Virus record (IMG/VR): IMGVR_UViG_3300025147_000006
Span: 1 to 42,303 of that record
Length of the DNA stretch: 42,303 nt
Direction: 5' to 3' (one strand)
From: a virus
In this document: piece by piece, positions 5,001 to 42,303 of the stretch
Position numbering within the stretch: position 1 is the first letter of the stretch
Layout of the letters: each line of letters begins with the position of its first letter
Notes under the pieces: generated by a model
Seen by the model: only the letters and a program-made list of their open reading frames with translations
What the model was told of the DNA's origin: nothing
Database searches by the model: none
Made by a program: the position numbers and the translations under genes

Positions 5001-5450
5001 CTACTCAATATCAATATCTTTTAATACTTTATCGAGTAATTCCTGTACAAACTCATTAATTCCCATGCGAGACTCGAAAGCAAGTTCTTTAATGTTGTTT
5101 ATTGTAGATTCCTTCAATCTCCAAGCGACCATTTTTATCCTTTCTCTCGAATTCTTTTTTATTATTATGCCTAAATTCATGACATTGTAGCCCTCATTTA
5201 CTGCATTATATTGGCTTATGTAAAAACGTTCTCTTTCTTTTAAAACATCTTTATCACATTCTTCTATAGTTTCAAAAGTAAAACTAGTTGATCCATATTC
5301 ATCCCAATCGTTTTGAAGAAAATTATTTGTATGAGAGTTATATTTTAATTCACTTGCGTGCCTTGACATTCTTGTCTTAATATTAGTGGAACTACCAATG
5401 TATACCTTTCCATTTTTTGTATTCCTAATACAATATATTCCTGATTCCAT
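5001..5450 (-). CDS. GIY-YIG nuclease fused to an RHH-like domain
   Basis: A 149-aa protein. Residues 1-95 are a GIY-YIG nuclease domain: GIY (4-6), KVYIGSS (15-21), Arg27/Arg30 and an acidic helix near residues 60-75. The last 40 residues (110-149) form a separate domain that aligns without gaps with the C terminus of the adjacent partition protein. I count 18 identities in 40, including STI, IK-L, MG, EF, VL and the final IE. The fusion gives the nuclease a DNA-binding module related to its neighbour's. It follows that gene by 85 bp that contain two 20-bp direct repeats. It could be a homing-type nuclease or a partition/copy-control accessory. Confidence 0.85.
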   Translation of the reverse strand: MESGIYCIRNTKNGKVYIGSSTNIKTRMSRHASELKYNSHTNNFLQNDWDEYGSTSFTFETIEECDKDVLKERERFYISQYNAVNEGYNVMNLGIIIKKNSRERIKMVAWRLKESTINNIKELAFESRMGINEFVQELLDKVLKDIDIE

Positions 5451-5492
5451 GTTATTACCTCCTGTTAATTTTATAATATAAGTATATCATAA

Positions 5493-5536
5493 GTTAGCAA
5501 AAGTGTAAACATATTTGTTAGCATAAATGCAAACAT
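5493..5536. repeat. Two 20-bp direct repeats, candidate partition site
   Basis: GTTAGCAAAAGTGTAAACAT (5493-5512) and GTTAGCATAAATGCAAACAT (5517-5536) match at 17 of 20 positions with a 24-bp period. They fill the gap between the RHH protein gene and the GIY-YIG gene. The TGTAAAC core reappears inside the RHH gene. Position next to parA/RHH genes suggests a centromere-like or operator site. Confidence 0.6.
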
Positions 5537-5823
5537 TACTCAATTTTAATATTATCCAACACGTTATTAAGTACAGTCTGTAAAAACTCACTTACACCCA
5601 TGTCAGCAACCTTAGACAACTTCTTTATACGTTTTATTGTGGACATTCTTAAATAGTAAGTCTGCCTAATAATATCGTCAATATCATCAGACTTTTTATT
5701 AATAACAATGTTTACATTTTTGTTTACAGTGTTTACATCAACATTGTTTACACTTACATTTACATCTTCTTTATTTCCAACATTAAACACTCCACCATCT
5801 GGTATAGTTAACTTACTTCCCAT
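5536..5823 (-). CDS. Small RHH partition protein (ParB/ParG-like)
   Basis: A 95-aa protein encoded directly after ParA and overlapping its end by 11 bases. Start ATG 5823 sits 9 bases after AAGGAGG; upstream TTG codons are too close. Residues 1-50 are a flexible Val/Asn-rich extension (VNVSVNNVDVNTVNKNVNIV at 21-40). Residues 55-95 have the strand-helix-helix pattern YYLRMSTIKRIKKLS...MGVSEFLQ of RHH proteins. Small RHH partners with flexible N-terminal arms are typical of type Ib ParA systems (ParG, Omega) and bind centromere repeats. The extension's DNA is itself a row of GTTTACA repeats. Confidence 0.75.
   Translation of the reverse strand: MGSKLTIPDGGVFNVGNKEDVNVSVNNVDVNTVNKNVNIVINKKSDDIDDIIRQTYYLRMSTIKRIKKLSKVADMGVSEFLQTVLNNVLDNIKIE
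5710..5764. repeat. GTTTACA repeat cluster inside the partition gene
   Basis: GTTTACA occurs at 5710, 5722, 5731 and 5746, with a degenerate ATTTACA at 5758. Its reverse complement TGTAAAC is the core of the direct repeat at 5493. The cluster codes for the Val/Asn-rich arm of the RHH protein, so coding and binding-site functions may overlap. Confidence 0.5.
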
Positions 5824-6580
5824 AATCAACAACCTCCTTAGCTAATTTGTGATACAACTGCACTATATCATGTTCTGGAAATGCATCTATTGTAGGCATA
5901 CCTTTCATAGGTGATTCTGCAAACCTTACGCACTTATATATAATAGTATCAAATACTTTTATATTATGCTGTTCAAAGTACCTTCTAGCCTCTTGTAGGA
6001 CTAATCCAGACAAGCTAGTCCGTGTATCATAAATTGTGCCGACTATACCCATGATGTTAAGTTGCGGATTATACAGCTCCTTTGTTTTCTGAACAGCATC
6101 AATAATCTTATTTACACCTTTAGCCGCGAGATATTCACATTGTAGCGGAATGATAACATCGGTACTAGCCACTAGAGCGTTTATAGTCAATAATCCTTTA
6201 CTAGGTGGACAATCTATTACTATATAATCATAATCAGCTAGAAAAGGCTTTAAAGCATCTTTAAGCATGGTTACTGGATTGATTTTATCTCTGTTTAAAA
6301 TAAGAATCATATCCAAGTCTGATAAATCATCATTGGCTGGCAGCAGGTCGCAATATTTAGTGTGGATCACTGTATCTTTAAATTCAGATTCGCCTATTAA
6401 CATCGAGAATATTGTGTTTTTTAAATCATCAGATTCAATTCCCAAGCTAGTTGATGCGTTGCCCTGCGGATCTATTTCTACTAATAAAACTCTTCCCGGT
6501 AAAGCTGATGCTAAATTAACGGCCGTGGTGGTTTTACCTACGCCACCTTTTCTACTAGCTATTGCAATTATCTTTGTCAT
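5813..6580 (-). CDS. parA: ParA family partition ATPase (Soj-like, short type)
   Basis: A 255-aa ATPase. The deviant Walker A KGGVGKTTT spans residues 11-19, the switch motif DPQGN is at 38-42, and VIDCPPS (121-127) is the Walker B region. There is no N-terminal helix-turn-helix, so it is of the short (type Ib/Soj) class, which pairs with small RHH proteins like the one downstream. It would move replicated circles to both daughter cells along the nucleoid. SD AAGGAGTGAT. Its presence in a phage without an integrase indicates plasmid-like prophage maintenance. Confidence 0.92.
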   Translation of the reverse strand: MTKIIAIASRKGGVGKTTTAVNLASALPGRVLLVEIDPQGNASTSLGIESDDLKNTIFSMLIGESEFKDTVIHTKYCDLLPANDDLSDLDMILILNRDKINPVTMLKDALKPFLADYDYIVIDCPPSKGLLTINALVASTDVIIPLQCEYLAAKGVNKIIDAVQKTKELYNPQLNIMGIVGTIYDTRTSLSGLVLQEARRYFEQHNIKVFDTIIYKCVRFAESPMKGMPTIDAFPEHDIVQLYHKLAKEVVDYGK

Positions 6581-6739: not shown

Positions 6740-6768
6740 TTTACAGCGTAGAACAAGCGTTCTATAAT
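6740..6768 (+). promoter_or_regulatory. Sigma-A promoter with a LexA-type (SOS) box in the spacer
   Basis: TTTACA (6740-6745), exactly 17 bases, TATAAT (6763-6768). The spacer holds TAGAACAAGCGTTCTA (6749-6764), a perfect 6-bp inverted repeat whose core GAAC-N4-GTTC is the Gram-positive LexA/DinR box core. A repressor bound there would block the polymerase. The promoter drives the 39-aa ORF at 6800 and points into the convergent repressor gene. Confidence 0.8.
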
Positions 6769-6799
6769 GATGATACTAATCACAGGGAGGTCTTGCACT

Positions 6800-6919
6800 A
6801 TGTCGCTTATTATGGCTATTACTTACGTTCATTTTGGTATTGCAAGTGTTGAATTATTAATTGTTGGCAGGACATTACTCTTCAATTTAGACTATAAGGA
6901 ACTAGAAAAAGTCACTTAG
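6800..6919 (+). CDS. 39-aa hydrophobic peptide under an SOS-type promoter
   Basis: SD GGGAGG (6785-6790) and ATG lie about 30 bases after the -10 element. The first 28 residues are largely hydrophobic (MSLIMAITYVHFGIASVELL), followed by a charged tail DYKELEKVT. Its 3' end overlaps the end of the convergent repressor gene by 8 bp. By position it may be an SOS-induced antirepressor, a membrane peptide, or merely the leader of an RNA antisense to the repressor. No homologue is recognised. Confidence 0.6.
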   Translation: MSLIMAITYVHFGIASVELLIVGRTLLFNLDYKELEKVT

Positions 6920-7277
6920 TCCTGAACATTTCTGCAATTTTCGCTAATTGGCGTATTTCCTCTGGAGATAAGCCTTTTTCTTTTAGTTCCTTTGTAACCA
7001 TCATGTATTCTACTCCAATTTCTCGTAATTCTTTTGGCATTTCTTCGCTATTAAATGAAGGATTTACGAAAAAGTCTAAATTAACATCACAAGCCTTTGC
7101 AATTTGATTCATCGTTATTATTGTAGGCAGACTGTGACCGTTCTCTGCATCACCCAGAAAGCTCCTGCTTATGCCCACTTCTTTAGATAGCATTTCTTGT
7201 GTCATTTTTTTACCTGTTTTTTCTTGATATAAGAGCCTAGCCATCTTAATTCTGTTACCTATTTCTGATTTATCCAT
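6912..7277 (-). CDS. XRE-family phage repressor (no protease domain)
   Basis: A 121-aa protein with an N-terminal XRE helix-turn-helix (about 25-47, MTQEMLSKEVGISRSFLGDA) and a short helical C terminus (IGVEYMMVTKELKEKGLSPE...). It lacks the S24 autocleavage domain of lambda-type repressors, so RecA cannot trigger its self-cleavage. It is transcribed leftward from a strong promoter that overlaps inverted repeats, and diverges from the Cro-like gene at 7534. This is the standard arrangement of a temperate-phage switch. Confidence 0.85.
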   Translation of the reverse strand: MDKSEIGNRIKMARLLYQEKTGKKMTQEMLSKEVGISRSFLGDAENGHSLPTIITMNQIAKACDVNLDFFVNPSFNSEEMPKELREIGVEYMMVTKELKEKGLSPEEIRQLAKIAEMFRTK

Positions 7278-7317: not shown

Positions 7318-7398
7318 CATAATGATATTACATTAATAACGTCATTATGTCAAGAAACAAGAGGAAATAATATTAAATGATTGTAATATCGTCATAAT
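7318..7398. promoter_or_regulatory. Operator cluster of the genetic switch
   Basis: CATAATGA (7318-7325) and TCATTATG (7342-7349) form a perfect 8-bp inverted repeat around 16 bases. A third related site, TCGTCATAAT, lies at 7389-7398. The common CGTCATWAT unit appears in the second and third sites. They flank and overlap the repressor promoter. Confidence 0.6.
7325..7353 (-). promoter_or_regulatory. Repressor (maintenance) promoter
   Basis: On the minus strand TTGACA (7353-7348), 17 bases, TAATAT (7330-7325). Operator arms overlap both elements, so the repressor probably regulates itself. About 50 bases of leader separate it from the start codon. Confidence 0.8.
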
Positions 7399-7533: not shown

Positions 7534-7761
7534 ATGTTATTAGCGGAAAGGTTTGAAAGCCTTACGTGGAGAAGGAAAATAGCGATTCTTAGACAAATGT
7601 TTGGATTAAATCAACAAGAATTTGCGGACAAGGTAGGCACAACACAGAAAAACGTAGCCTTGTGGGAAACAGGGAATACAAGCCCGAGAGGAATGTCGAG
7701 AAAAGCAATATGCAGGGCGTTAGAAGCTACAGAAACGGAAATTTTCGGACAAGCAGTATAA
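7534..7761 (+). CDS. Cro-like XRE-family regulator
   Basis: A 75-aa protein that is almost entirely one helix-turn-helix domain (about 26-47, LNQQEFADKVGTTQKNVALW). SD AAAGGAAGTGAT. First gene of the rightward early transcript and divergent from the repressor, as Cro proteins are. Expected to bind the shared operators and favour lytic growth. Confidence 0.8.
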   Translation: MLLAERFESLTWRRKIAILRQMFGLNQQEFADKVGTTQKNVALWETGNTSPRGMSRKAICRALEATETEIFGQAV

Positions 7762-7781: not shown

Positions 7782-8537
7782 TTGAACAATTTAACTTTAA
7801 TCAACACAAACGGCAAATTTACAGTAGATAGCCGAGAAGTAGCAGAAATGGTAGGTAAAGACCATAAGAATTTATTAAGAGATATTTGCAAGTACGTTGA
7901 TATTCTAAAAGACCCGGGCTCAAATTTGAGCGCAGCTAATTTCTTTGAATTAAGTTCTTATATTGACAATCAAAATCAGACAAGACCATGTTTTTTATTA
8001 ACTCGTAAAGGCTGCGACATGGTAGCCAACAAAATGACCGGAGAAAAAGGAGTTTTATTCACAGCTACATATGTAACTAAATTTGAAGAAATGGAACAAA
8101 CTTTGAAAACTCCAGCAGTGAAACAAATGACCCAGTCAGAACTGATATTTGGACTTGCACAGTGCAATGTTGAGTTAGAGAAAAAGGTTACAGCTCTTGA
8201 TACAAGATTTACAAATGCCATTGATATTTTCACGGCTCCTTCAAAGGATGATTGGAAACATGATATAAATTCAAAAATTAACCAAATTATCGAAAGTCAA
8301 GGATTAAACCACCAGAAATTCAGAGGGGATTTATATGAAGAACTGGAGTTATTGGCTCATTGCAATGTTACAGCAAGACAAAGCAATCTTAGAAAGCGCA
8401 TGAAAGAAAATGGGGCTACATATAAGGATTGTCAAGCAGCTACAAAGCTTGATGTTGTCGATAGGGATGTACAGCTAAAACCTATATTCGAGGGAATTGT
8501 TAGGAAGTATCAGGCTAAATATGCTATGGCAGTTTAA
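7782..8537 (+). CDS. Rha-family antirepressor
   Basis: A 251-aa protein translated from TTG 7782 after AGAGAGGGGAAA; an in-frame upstream start at 7662 lies inside the Cro-like gene and has no SD. The N-terminal 100 residues (DSREVAEMVGKDHKNLLRDI, then the FLLTRKGCDMVANKMTG region) are the phage regulatory protein Rha domain. The C-terminal half, with HCNVTARQSNLRKRMKENGA, resembles the second domain of many Firmicute phage antirepressors. Proteins of this type counteract the prophage repressor or regulate early genes. It is the second gene of the early operon. Confidence 0.85.
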   Translation: MNNLTLINTNGKFTVDSREVAEMVGKDHKNLLRDICKYVDILKDPGSNLSAANFFELSSYIDNQNQTRPCFLLTRKGCDMVANKMTGEKGVLFTATYVTKFEEMEQTLKTPAVKQMTQSELIFGLAQCNVELEKKVTALDTRFTNAIDIFTAPSKDDWKHDINSKINQIIESQGLNHQKFRGDLYEELELLAHCNVTARQSNLRKRMKENGATYKDCQAATKLDVVDRDVQLKPIFEGIVRKYQAKYAMAV

Positions 8538-39672: not shown

Positions 39673-42303
39673 ATGGGATTCAGTGCAAATGTAAAAAAAG
39701 AATTAAACTTAAAAACAGCAAAAACTTCTTTTACTCAGAAGGTGAAAACTGAACTTGTGCAGCAAGACAACACCACTAAAATGCTACAAGCCCAAAAAGT
39801 ATCAGCGTTAAAAGAAAAGAATGCGATTAAGCCGACTATTACTCCACAATATTCCTTACAAAAGCAACAGGACTTAATGGATTTTATGGAGAAACCTTTA
39901 ATCAAACCTTTAGTGGCAAAGCCTAAAGCTAATGTGCCTTATGTTAACACCTTTAAAGAAGTGCCTAAAAACATCAAGAGTGGTAATATCTTAGGCGGTT
40001 TGGGTAACTCTTTGAAAGGTGTCGGGCAAATGGCATTAGAGGGTTTATCAGCACCACAAAAGCTAGTTCTTAATGCTTCAAAAGGCATAATTGATACACA
40101 TAAGGGCAAAAAGGCTAGTTTTAATCCAAATATTACAACAGATAGTTATTTAAAAGATACAGGCAACGCGCAAGGGGATAAGTTTTATAACTCTAAAGTT
40201 GGACAGTTTGCAAAGGGTGTTTTTAATCTAGGTAGTGACCCCTTTACAGTAGTCGGTGGTGGTATAGCAGATGATGTTTTGAGAGCAACAACTAAAGGTG
40301 CTAAAGGGCTTGAAAACTTAGGCAATATTGGTAAAAAAGCTAGTGAGAAAATGGCTGATAATCCAATCATTAGGTCGCTTAATGATAAGTTAACAACCGT
40401 ATCTAAAGGAACAAATGCTAACCTTGCAGCCAGAGAGGCATTAACAGCAGCTAATAAAATAGATAGTGCCAATAAGCCCTTAAATGACCTTCCAACCATC
40501 AAACTGCAATCAGATGTAATTACACCAGATGACAAGTTTATGACGGATAGACTTAAAAATGCTACCGATTCAGAGTTAACACCATACGAGTTAAAGTACA
40601 AGCAAACGGTGTTAAATAGAGGTTCGGCAAGTGAAACGGTTGCACCAGCTATAACTAAAGAAGTACCTACAGTAGCGAGTATCAAGCCTAAACTGACAAT
40701 TACAACTAATGCGCAAGGCAAGAGGGTTATTTCTAGTGGGCTAAAGTCTAAAGCCGCTACCATTAATATAGATAATCCAACTAAAGTTAATCTTCAATCT
40801 TTTAACGAAGCTGAAAAAGCTACAGGAGAATTAAAAACAAGTCAGTTCAGAGAGAATACCATTGAACGAGCAACGGAAATTAATGATACAGCTAGAGAAA
40901 TGTTTCCAGAAAACGAATTCCGGTATGAGGTTGAGAAAGTTGCTGATTGGCAAAACCAAGCCGTTAGCAATATTAACAAGAATAAAAAATCCGTAGAGTT
41001 CGAAATAAGGAATGCTTCTGATTCTTTAACTAAAGTACAACAACATGAAGCCGCTATTCTGTACAAAGAATTTGAACAAGAAGCTATGGGAACAGGCGAT
41101 TGGACAAAGGCATTAAGTTTTATGAAAACTGTTACAAGAGGTAACACGGAAGCAGGAAGAAACTTAAAGGCTATAGATTCGGCATGGGAGAAGAAAACAG
41201 CAGCAGGGGCGGTTATGGATGCCGTTAAAGCGGTTGACGGTGTTGAAGAAGGGTTAAAGAAAACTAATCCTGCAAAGCTTAAAAAGATTAATGAAGAAAC
41301 GGATGGAATCGTTAAAGGTTTAGAAGGGTTAACCGATGTTCAAAAAGAAGCTAGATTAAAGCAAATCTTTAAACCAAGTGTACTAAAACCTCAAAGAAGT
41401 TTACGCGAAAAAGTATTGGAATTAATTGATTTAGGGGCTTATGACAAGGAATCTATAAGGGACTTGATTAAGCTTAAAGAAGGTTTGCCGATACTTGAAG
41501 TTGATGATATTAAAAAGATTACGGAGTACATGAATAAGGCTAAGACTTTTGCAGAAGGTAGTTATGACCAGAGGGATATGTACGGTAGAGTTGGTTTGCT
41601 GATAGCTAACAAAGTTCCTGCAAGCCTAACAACTAAAATAGTTCATGCACCAAGAATGGCTATGTTGGGAGCAATGAAAACATTTTTCACTAAGAATTTC
41701 GGTGGCAATGTTGGTAACGATGTTTACGAAGAATTTATAAGAAGTGTTCCAAGTTCAATAATTGATATGGTAGTTTCTAAGATTGCTAAAACAGATAGAA
41801 CTATTTTATTTCCTTCTGTAAAAACCATAGGGACTAAGTTAAAAGGTTATGGAACTGGTTTTGCCGAACAGACTAAAGACATAATAAGAGGAACAAACAC
41901 AGCACCGAATATGGTGGCAGGAGAAATACCACAAGGCAGAATATACAAAACCAAAATATTAAATGGAATTGACCAGTTTATCAGGGCAGGACTTCAATAT
42001 GGAGATCGCCCTACTTTTCAGAGTGTATTTGATGAAACCATAAGGCAGCAAAAGAAGATACTAAAAACTGATACAATTACTGATAGTATGAAAACTTTTG
42101 CACATGAAGTTGCTAGTGACAGAGTATTCCAAAATAAGAGCGAGACAGCAAAAGGGCTAGGAGGTCTTAGAACTGGAATAAATCAGATGGGCAAAGGCTT
42201 ACTGGGCATAGGTGGCAAAGAAGGTGGTGTGGGTAATGCCATTTCTCCATTCATAAACACGGCTGCCAACATTGCTGAAAAAGTCGTGGATAACACACCA
42301 ATT
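39673..42303 (+). CDS. Very large internal virion protein (N-terminal part; gene continues at 2-1213)
   Basis: ATG 39673 is 6 bases after AGGAGG; an alternative ATG at 39668 is in another frame and stops at once. The frame stays open to the end and continues across the circle to 1213, giving 1238 aa. Residues about 633-790 (RDMYGRVGLLIANKVPASLT, APRMAMLGAMKTFFTKNFGG and IDQFIRAGLQYGDRPTFQSV) resemble a large polyvalent protein domain (LPD38-like) found in podovirus proteins that enter the cell with the DNA. The last 127 bases duplicate 1-127. Confidence 0.85.
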   Translation, partial: MGFSANVKKELNLKTAKTSFTQKVKTELVQQDNTTKMLQAQKVSALKEKNAIKPTITPQYSLQKQQDLMDFMEKPLIKPLVAKPKANVPYVNTFKEVPKNIKSGNILGGLGNSLKGVGQMALEGLSAPQKLVLNASKGIIDTHKGKKASFNPNITTDSYLKDTGNAQGDKFYNSKVGQFAKGVFNLGSDPFTVVGGGIADDVLRATTKGAKGLENLGNIGKKASEKMADNPIIRSLNDKLTTVSKGTNANLAAREALTAANKIDSANKPLNDLPTIKLQSDVITPDDKFMTDRLKNATDSELTPYELKYKQTVLNRGSASETVAPAITKEVPTVASIKPKLTITTNAQGKRVISSGLKSKAATINIDNPTKVNLQSFNEAEKATGELKTSQFRENTIERATEINDTAREMFPENEFRYEVEKVADWQNQAVSNINKNKKSVEFEIRNASDSLTKVQQHEAAILYKEFEQEAMGTGDWTKALSFMKTVTRGNTEAGRNLKAIDSAWEKKTAAGAVMDAVKAVDGVEEGLKKTNPAKLKKINEETDGIVKGLEGLTDVQKEARLKQIFKPSVLKPQRSLREKVLELIDLGAYDKESIRDLIKLKEGLPILEVDDIKKITEYMNKAKTFAEGSYDQRDMYGRVGLLIANKVPASLTTKIVHAPRMAMLGAMKTFFTKNFGGNVGNDVYEEFIRSVPSSIIDMVVSKIAKTDRTILFPSVKTIGTKLKGYGTGFAEQTKDIIRGTNTAPNMVAGEIPQGRIYKTKILNGIDQFIRAGLQYGDRPTFQSVFDETIRQQKKILKTDTITDSMKTFAHEVASDRVFQNKSETAKGLGGLRTGINQMGKGLLGIGGKEGGVGNAISPFINTAANIAEKVVDNTPI
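42177..42303. repeat. Terminal direct repeat, right copy
   Basis: Identical to bases 1-127 over the whole length. See the left copy: the two ends close the 42,176-bp circle. Confidence 0.95.

Follow-up and report, generated by a model that had tools for sequence, protein, structure and literature searches.

A virus contig of 42,303 bases (IMG/VR record IMGVR_UViG_3300025147_000006; hereafter the window, meaning this whole stretch of DNA) carries a promoter with a candidate SOS (LexA) box of the Gram-positive type in its spacer, followed by an open reading frame (ORF) for a hydrophobic peptide of 39 amino acids (aa), which runs convergently into a short repressor gene of the XRE family. The same order was found at 22 other loci in viral contigs. 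We consider it probable, at about two chances in three, that this arrangement is the DNA-damage induction module of a plasmid-like temperate phage, acting through the peptide and through antisense transcription. That the module serves SOS-driven induction is surer than that the peptide of the window is itself the antirepressor.

In the lysogen, host LexA would occupy the box between the -35 and -10 elements and hold the promoter off, and the short, non-self-cleaving XRE repressor would keep the early genes off. Upon DNA damage, RecA would trigger the self-cleavage of LexA and the SOS promoter would fire, giving a transcript that is predicted to encode the 39-aa peptide and then to cross the repressor gene in antisense. 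The peptide would inactivate the repressor protein, most likely via its C-terminal multimerisation helices, as SinI acts on SinR, and the antisense transcription would slow repressor replacement, so that the divergent early operon (Cro-like, Rha) could open.

The SOS-box promoter and the repressor

A sequence-only reading of this region had described the promoter TTTACA-N17-TATAAT with a perfect TAGAAC-AAGC-GTTCTA repeat in its spacer, the hydrophobic 39-aa ORF, and a convergent 121-aa XRE repressor gene without an S24 domain; all three were recovered in the current analysis (table 1). The promoter was the highest-scoring promoter-like site (11 of 12) within a 3.2-kb region. The exact core GAAC-N4-GTTC occurs once in the whole 42.3-kb genome, and since 0.2–0.4 occurrences are expected by chance (0.22 in shuffles), the core alone is unremarkable. 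The core with the -35 and -10 hexamers in register, however, is expected only about 6e-6 times per genome of the window's composition. LexA operators of C. difficile are reported to be GAAC-N4-GTTC/T (PMC4234289), which the window box fits; judged by sequence, the window thus shows the arrangement of the Gram-positive LexA regulon, a GAAC-N4-GTTC operator inside a promoter. Moreover, recA genes in viral contigs (L200, L202) are headed by TTGACAGAATAGAACGATTGTTCTATAAT, in which promoter and box have the same geometry as in the window. Identical spacing in front of true recA genes ties this geometry to the SOS regulon.

The start codon of the 39-aa ORF lies 31 nt past the -10 element. An ATG led by a Shine-Dalgarno (SD) sequence and followed by at least 32 open codons was obtained at that position in 7 of 5000 shuffles. 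The ORF and the repressor gene overlap tail to tail by 8 nt, and the only terminator-like site in the region was distant from the ORF and on the opposite strand. A look-alike of the repressor operator, with two mismatches, overlaps the -10 element (6764-6778). By chance alone the window should contain about 6.5 matches of this quality, making the site a lead only; the repressor might, as the site hints, damp its antagonist too.

Family scans of the window repressor matched helix-turn-helix (HTH) domains only. Neither Peptidase_S24 nor an M78 (ImmA-like) peptidase was found anywhere in the record, and thus no LexA-like self-cleavage or ImmA-type protease is apparent for this repressor. Its predicted structure had as best PDB match SinR of the SinR-SinI complex (Foldseek 1b0n, E 4.9e-4), with a TM-score of just 0.50 and predicted local distance difference test (pLDDT) values of 52-89 in the linker and C-terminal part. 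The family profile of the repressor covers SinR (residues 1-110) and the phi106 phage repressor, which was solved with AimX, over nearly the whole length. By model and profile, the repressor has the HTH domain and the C-terminal helical multimerisation segment of SinR-like repressors of about 110 aa.

Recurrence of the gene order in other phages

Viral contigs were scanned for sigma-A promoters with GAAC-N4-GTTC in the spacer, and the neighbours of these promoters were then inspected. Behind 17 (the window counted) of 167 such promoters, the opposite strand carried a short XRE gene whose end lay 60-450 nt downstream, against approximately 2.3 expected if the XRE genes found were randomly placed. 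A looser scan added eight loci and two duplicates were removed, leaving 23 distinct loci, i.e. the window and 22 others. The order of SOS-box promoter, SD-led ORF of 32-60 aa and convergent short XRE repressor is common to all 23, with 21-97 nt (median 34) between the -10 element and the start codon and with repressors of 103-171 aa; the repressors of all 19 loci scanned matched HTH families only. The reading frames overlap tail to tail in 14 of the loci, by up to 104 nt, and in the other nine they are separated by 0-26 nt, or in one case by 70 nt. With a gap of at most 26 nt in all but this one locus, the SOS transcript should enter the repressor gene in antisense.

Raw counts of the promoter pattern were dropped as evidence, because 60 stretches were obtained with a control core (CAAG-N4-CTTG), compared with 89 for the SOS core. 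The control stretches come from phages with no XRE gene nearby and hence do not form a clean control; weight was put on the layout and on a second set of phages, which was selected by repressor. In this set, the repressor of one locus (L156) served as protein query against annotated phages, and both sides of the repressor gene were checked in the 13 records obtained. Four of the 13 had the exact box on the tail side (0.02 expected), and none had it on the head side. When up to one mismatch was allowed, the numbers were seven (1.0 expected) and none, respectively, and seven is probably an undercount, as the repressor end was misplaced in two records and the search stretch was too short in one.

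In Terrisporobacter phage TPDSL_ph2 (L357), the box is exact and fused to TATAAT, and an ORF of 39 aa (1276-1395) is convergent with the repressor gene. In its region 1276-1468, the annotated coding sequence (1337-1468) lies on the strand opposite to this putatively SOS-driven ORF, and is likely a misannotation. In C. difficile phages related to phiCD38-2, a convergent ORF of 31-37 aa, annotated in one copy as phiCD38-2 gp38-like, lies under a box with one mismatch. JD033, phiCD08011 and Hain-Saunders, which are phages of C. difficile, have boxes that deviate by one mismatch and are located at the -35 element; these were counted as probable only.

By sequence, most of the small proteins of these loci look like one or two amphipathic helices, and most resemble helical hairpins of the SinI type. 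When the small proteins were scored against the final 60 residues of each repressor, they favoured their own over the others more strongly than in permuted pairings (p = 0.0004, all 23 pairs, by a permutation that ignores kinship among a few loci). The signal was present in a group of nine small proteins picked by eye (group A, p = 0.002), which resemble the C-terminal helices of their own repressors, and absent from a second group of nine (p = 0.23). Such likeness to the own repressor parallels the case of SinI, a mimic of the two-helix hook at the C-terminus of SinR, and we read the class as putative LexA-controlled, SinI-like micro-antirepressors.

Possible modes of action of the window peptide

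The 39-aa peptide of the window was predicted by AlphaFold2 to form a single helix (residues 2-38, pLDDT 95). Its maximal mean hydrophobicity is 0.68, with a low moment, the next highest value among the 23 small proteins being 0.46; two charged residues, E18 and R24, sit within the hydrophobic stretch. Neither this peptide nor the other small proteins had a convincing family in Pfam, PHROGs or NCBIfam, and a structure search with the window peptide gave no match. The possibility that the peptide is a relic of an XRE domain was considered and rejected: a match to the L093 repressor, with a score of 43 (reached in 0.1% of shuffles), was the best of 23 comparisons and too weak.

Several points weigh against the proposed module. 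The window peptide is membrane-like rather than an amphipathic hairpin, and is a clear outlier among the 23 small proteins; a two-helix hook like the C-terminal helices of the repressor, as in SinI, is not seen in it, although the other loci show a trend in this direction. It has no similarity to the tail of its own repressor (cognate rank 13 of 23), and consequently carries no mimicry signal of its own. That it would bind and release the repressor is suggested indirectly, by the cognate similarity in the group and not by the window's own pair. Searches of phages, plasmids and viral contigs returned no relatives of the peptide or of the exact immunity region, apart from the Rha gene and generic XRE/ParA similarity, and the comparisons made for the box and the ORF are with phages of other lineages. 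The candidate box was judged by the Gram-positive-type consensus. The 23 loci were found via the box, the 13 repressor-selected records being the sole box-independent set. Finally, the window also encodes a Rha antirepressor, which could act in induction.

Derepression might be achieved by transcription alone, with the LexA promoter silencing the repressor gene by antisense transcription or interference, perhaps reading into the early genes, and with the 39-aa ORF incidental. This would agree with the convergent layout, which leaves a terminator little or no space at the 23 loci, window included, with the position of the lone terminator-like site, remote from the ORF and on the opposite strand, and with a window peptide that is not hairpin-like. 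We nevertheless regard it as unlikely, given that each of the 23 loci has its SD-led ORF of 32-60 aa, that an ORF such as that of the window rarely arises in shuffles, and that the small proteins are, as a group, similar to the repressor tails.

The sequence-only reading had named a TisB-like SOS membrane peptide as an alternative. The peptide would then be a depolarising toxin or, like SidA, a division inhibitor encoded beside the repressor, and the phage would be induced otherwise, e.g. by Rha. By prediction the window peptide is, like TisB, a hydrophobic helix under LexA control, its hydrophobicity is in the membrane range, and it is in this respect the outlier of the group. Its position, size and layout, however, match those of loci whose proteins are mostly amphipathic, the charged E18 and R24 lie within the hydrophobic stretch, and an Rfam scan of the region, which covers known RNAs, detected no type I antitoxin RNA or other RNA family. 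A toxin or division inhibitor of this kind appears improbable as the whole explanation, and the antirepressor reading stands beside it. It is very improbable that the palindrome, instead of being a LexA box, serves as a partition site or as the operator of some regulator encoded by the phage: it does lie between parA and the repressor gene, where centromeres and operators occur, but it occurs once, the sequences that the repressor itself probably binds (TAATAACGTCATTAT and TAATATCGTCATAAT) look different, partition-like repeats lie elsewhere (5490-5780), and the same box, identically placed in the promoter, is found in front of recA and again in unrelated phages.

The proposed induction module is well supported, and the earlier proposal that the SOS promoter lifts repression through the peptide, through antisense transcription or through both has been strengthened in part, by the recurrence of the order in 22 other loci and in independently chosen phages, by the recA geometry and by the antisense layout. 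The part assigned to the peptide is less firm, as it is unlike the hairpins found at the related loci; it may act as an antirepressor of hydrophobic type or as a membrane peptide, or it may be a passenger, the effect coming from the antisense transcription. As a tentative generalisation, these loci may represent a widespread and undescribed class of Gram-positive phage switch, where a micro-antirepressor of 32-60 aa under LexA control is encoded convergently to, and partly antisense over, a non-cleavable SinR-like repressor, and a single SOS promoter would strike both the protein and its mRNA. The variant of the window would then be a membrane-seeking helix that pulls the repressor off DNA by a new route. 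In one locus (L023) the convergent repressor ends in a likely membrane segment (GLFGLCAGLVVLLLLLCV), implying that at least one XRE-type protein of the group may sit in the membrane.

Phage context and comparison with known systems

The ends of the window repeat directly over approximately 128 bases (1-128 and 42176-42303), which makes it probable that the record covers the whole genome, circularly closed and about 42.18 kb long. Genes for terminase, portal and major head are present, and searches of the record for a tyrosine or serine integrase gave no match. With ParA by the immunity region, Rha, structural genes and no integrase match, the window has the gene content of a temperate phage of plasmid-like type. 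Another record (G002) has the identical sequence where the two overlap, in the late region. The early regions of terminase relatives (70-80% identity) are unrelated, in the parts available for comparison. The partition genes are adjoined by a gene for a GIY-YIG homing-type endonuclease (5001-5450). Direct and inverted repeats of the TGTTTACA/GTAAACA type are clustered at 5490-5780, in and downstream of the gene of the presumed partition partner, and are possibly a partition site or an autoregulatory operator.

Table 1. Features of the immunity region and its neighbours, in window coordinates.
Feature	Position	Strand	Basis or remark
98-aa protein after parA, presumed partition partner	5536..5832	-	inference from position; no family match
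ParA partition ATPase	5813..6580	-	family match
Sigma-A type promoter TTTACA-N17-TATAAT, predicted to be LexA-controlled	6740..6768	+	-35 at 6740-6745, -10 at 6763-6768, spacer 17
Candidate SOS (LexA) box TAGAAC-AAGC-GTTCTA	6749..6764	.	perfect 16-bp inverted repeat in spacer, touching -10
Weak look-alike (2 mismatches) of repressor operator	6764..6778	-	overlaps -10 and SOS transcript start
Ribosome-binding site GGGAGG of small ORF	6785..6790	+	sequence
ORF for hydrophobic 39-aa peptide MSLIMAITYVHFGIASVELLIVGRTLLFNLDYKELEKVT, a candidate for an SOS-induced micro-antirepressor or a membrane peptide	6800..6919	+	sequence, AlphaFold2
121-aa XRE (HTH_3) repressor without peptidase domain	6912..7277	-	family scan; predicted SinR-like fold, C-terminal helices 89-100 and 105-120
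Predicted repressor promoter TTGACA-N17-TAATAT	7325..7353	-	promoter scan
Predicted operator 1, TAATAACGTCATTAT	7334..7348	+	inside the repressor's own promoter; unlike SOS box
Predicted operator 2, TAATATCGTCATAAT	7384..7398	+	unlike SOS box
75-aa XRE/Cro-like protein, divergent, first early gene	7534..7761	+	family match
Rha-family antirepressor/regulator	7782..8537	+	family match

Further ORFs were noted behind SOS-box promoters in the viral contigs. On the minus strand of L029, such a promoter (at 8506 of the reverse complement) heads a 77-aa ORF, which by eye looks like a LexA DNA-binding domain alone and is possibly a phage-made LexA competitor. A family of ORFs of about 76-82 aa (..IGS.A[FY]IIESNRII..) lies approximately 100 nt behind SOS-box promoters in L141, L149, L152, L159, L168, L173, L178, L191 and L206, in some of which an XRE gene comes next on the same strand; this is possibly a second SOS-induced module. 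Another family, of about 59-64 aa (M.KTNDE.I..FY..II.LP..), was found behind SOS-box promoters after a small Cro-like gene in L139, L143, L154, L167, L197, L216 and L219.

Temperate phages of Gram-positive hosts are often induced by DNA damage though their repressors have no LexA-like cleavage domain, and for many of them damage sensing is unexplained. For SPbeta, the route of damage sensing has been stated to be open (PMC8612738). The anatomy described here offers a concrete answer, and its recurrence in over twenty other phages suggests a widespread, little-described mode of damage sensing for phages with non-cleavable repressors. From it one can predict which prophages, in the gut or in the environment, respond to drugs that damage DNA, and it also flags overlooked genes that are too small for standard annotation, as in TPDSL_ph2, where the annotated gene is on the other strand.

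In the Salmonella Gifsy and Fels-1 prophages, small antirepressors controlled directly by LexA (GfoA, GfhA, GftA and FsoA) inactivate repressors that do not undergo cleavage (PMC3121763). Tum of coliphage 186 is of the same kind. The window shares with these systems a small protein that is predicted to stand under a LexA-type promoter and a repressor without a self-cleavage domain. Unlike the Gifsy-type genes, which lie outside the immunity region, the window gene lies inside it, convergent with and antisense to the repressor gene; the box is of the Gram-positive GAAC-N4-GTTC type, and the ORFs of the group encode just 32-60 aa.

SinI, with its likeness to the hook of two C-terminal helices in SinR, breaks up the SinR tetramer and forms a heterodimer unable to bind DNA (PMC3163267). 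The modelled window repressor has, like SinR of Bacillus subtilis, a HTH domain and two C-terminal helices. sinI is under Spo0A control, in contrast to the LexA-type promoter of the window ORF, and the window peptide is no two-helix hook, although group A of the other loci does resemble one. To judge from the structure entry, AimX with the phi106 repressor (PDB 9sf2) provides a further likeness, a short phage protein solved with a short XRE repressor that aligns to the family profile. The aimX gene is controlled by the arbitrium peptide system and not by LexA.

In linear plasmid-like vibriophages, modules of a transcription factor and a small ORF (TF-smORF; smORF72 and smORF63; Silpe 2023) encode tiny, family-less proteins that inactivate the phages' own repressor (PMC10432266). 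These phages are plasmid-like, as is the window by its gene content, and one of the smORFs is next to par genes. The TF-smORFs are, however, divergent from a phage activator gene, SOS-independent and paired with cleavable repressors; in the window the divergent neighbour is parA and the promoter carries an SOS box. LexA-controlled antirepressors are thus already known, as are tiny family-less ones, but the latter are SOS-independent in the vibriophages. A search of the open-access literature, with subscription journals outside its scope, found no description of a Gram-positive, LexA-driven micro-antirepressor placed convergently in the immunity region. The control of a plasmid-like phage by host LexA boxes, predicted here from sequence, has a counterpart in GIL01 (PMC4551915). 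In that phage, LexA together with gp7 reportedly represses transcription directly, whereas the window phage would rely on a repressor of its own, with LexA controlling the antagonist only.
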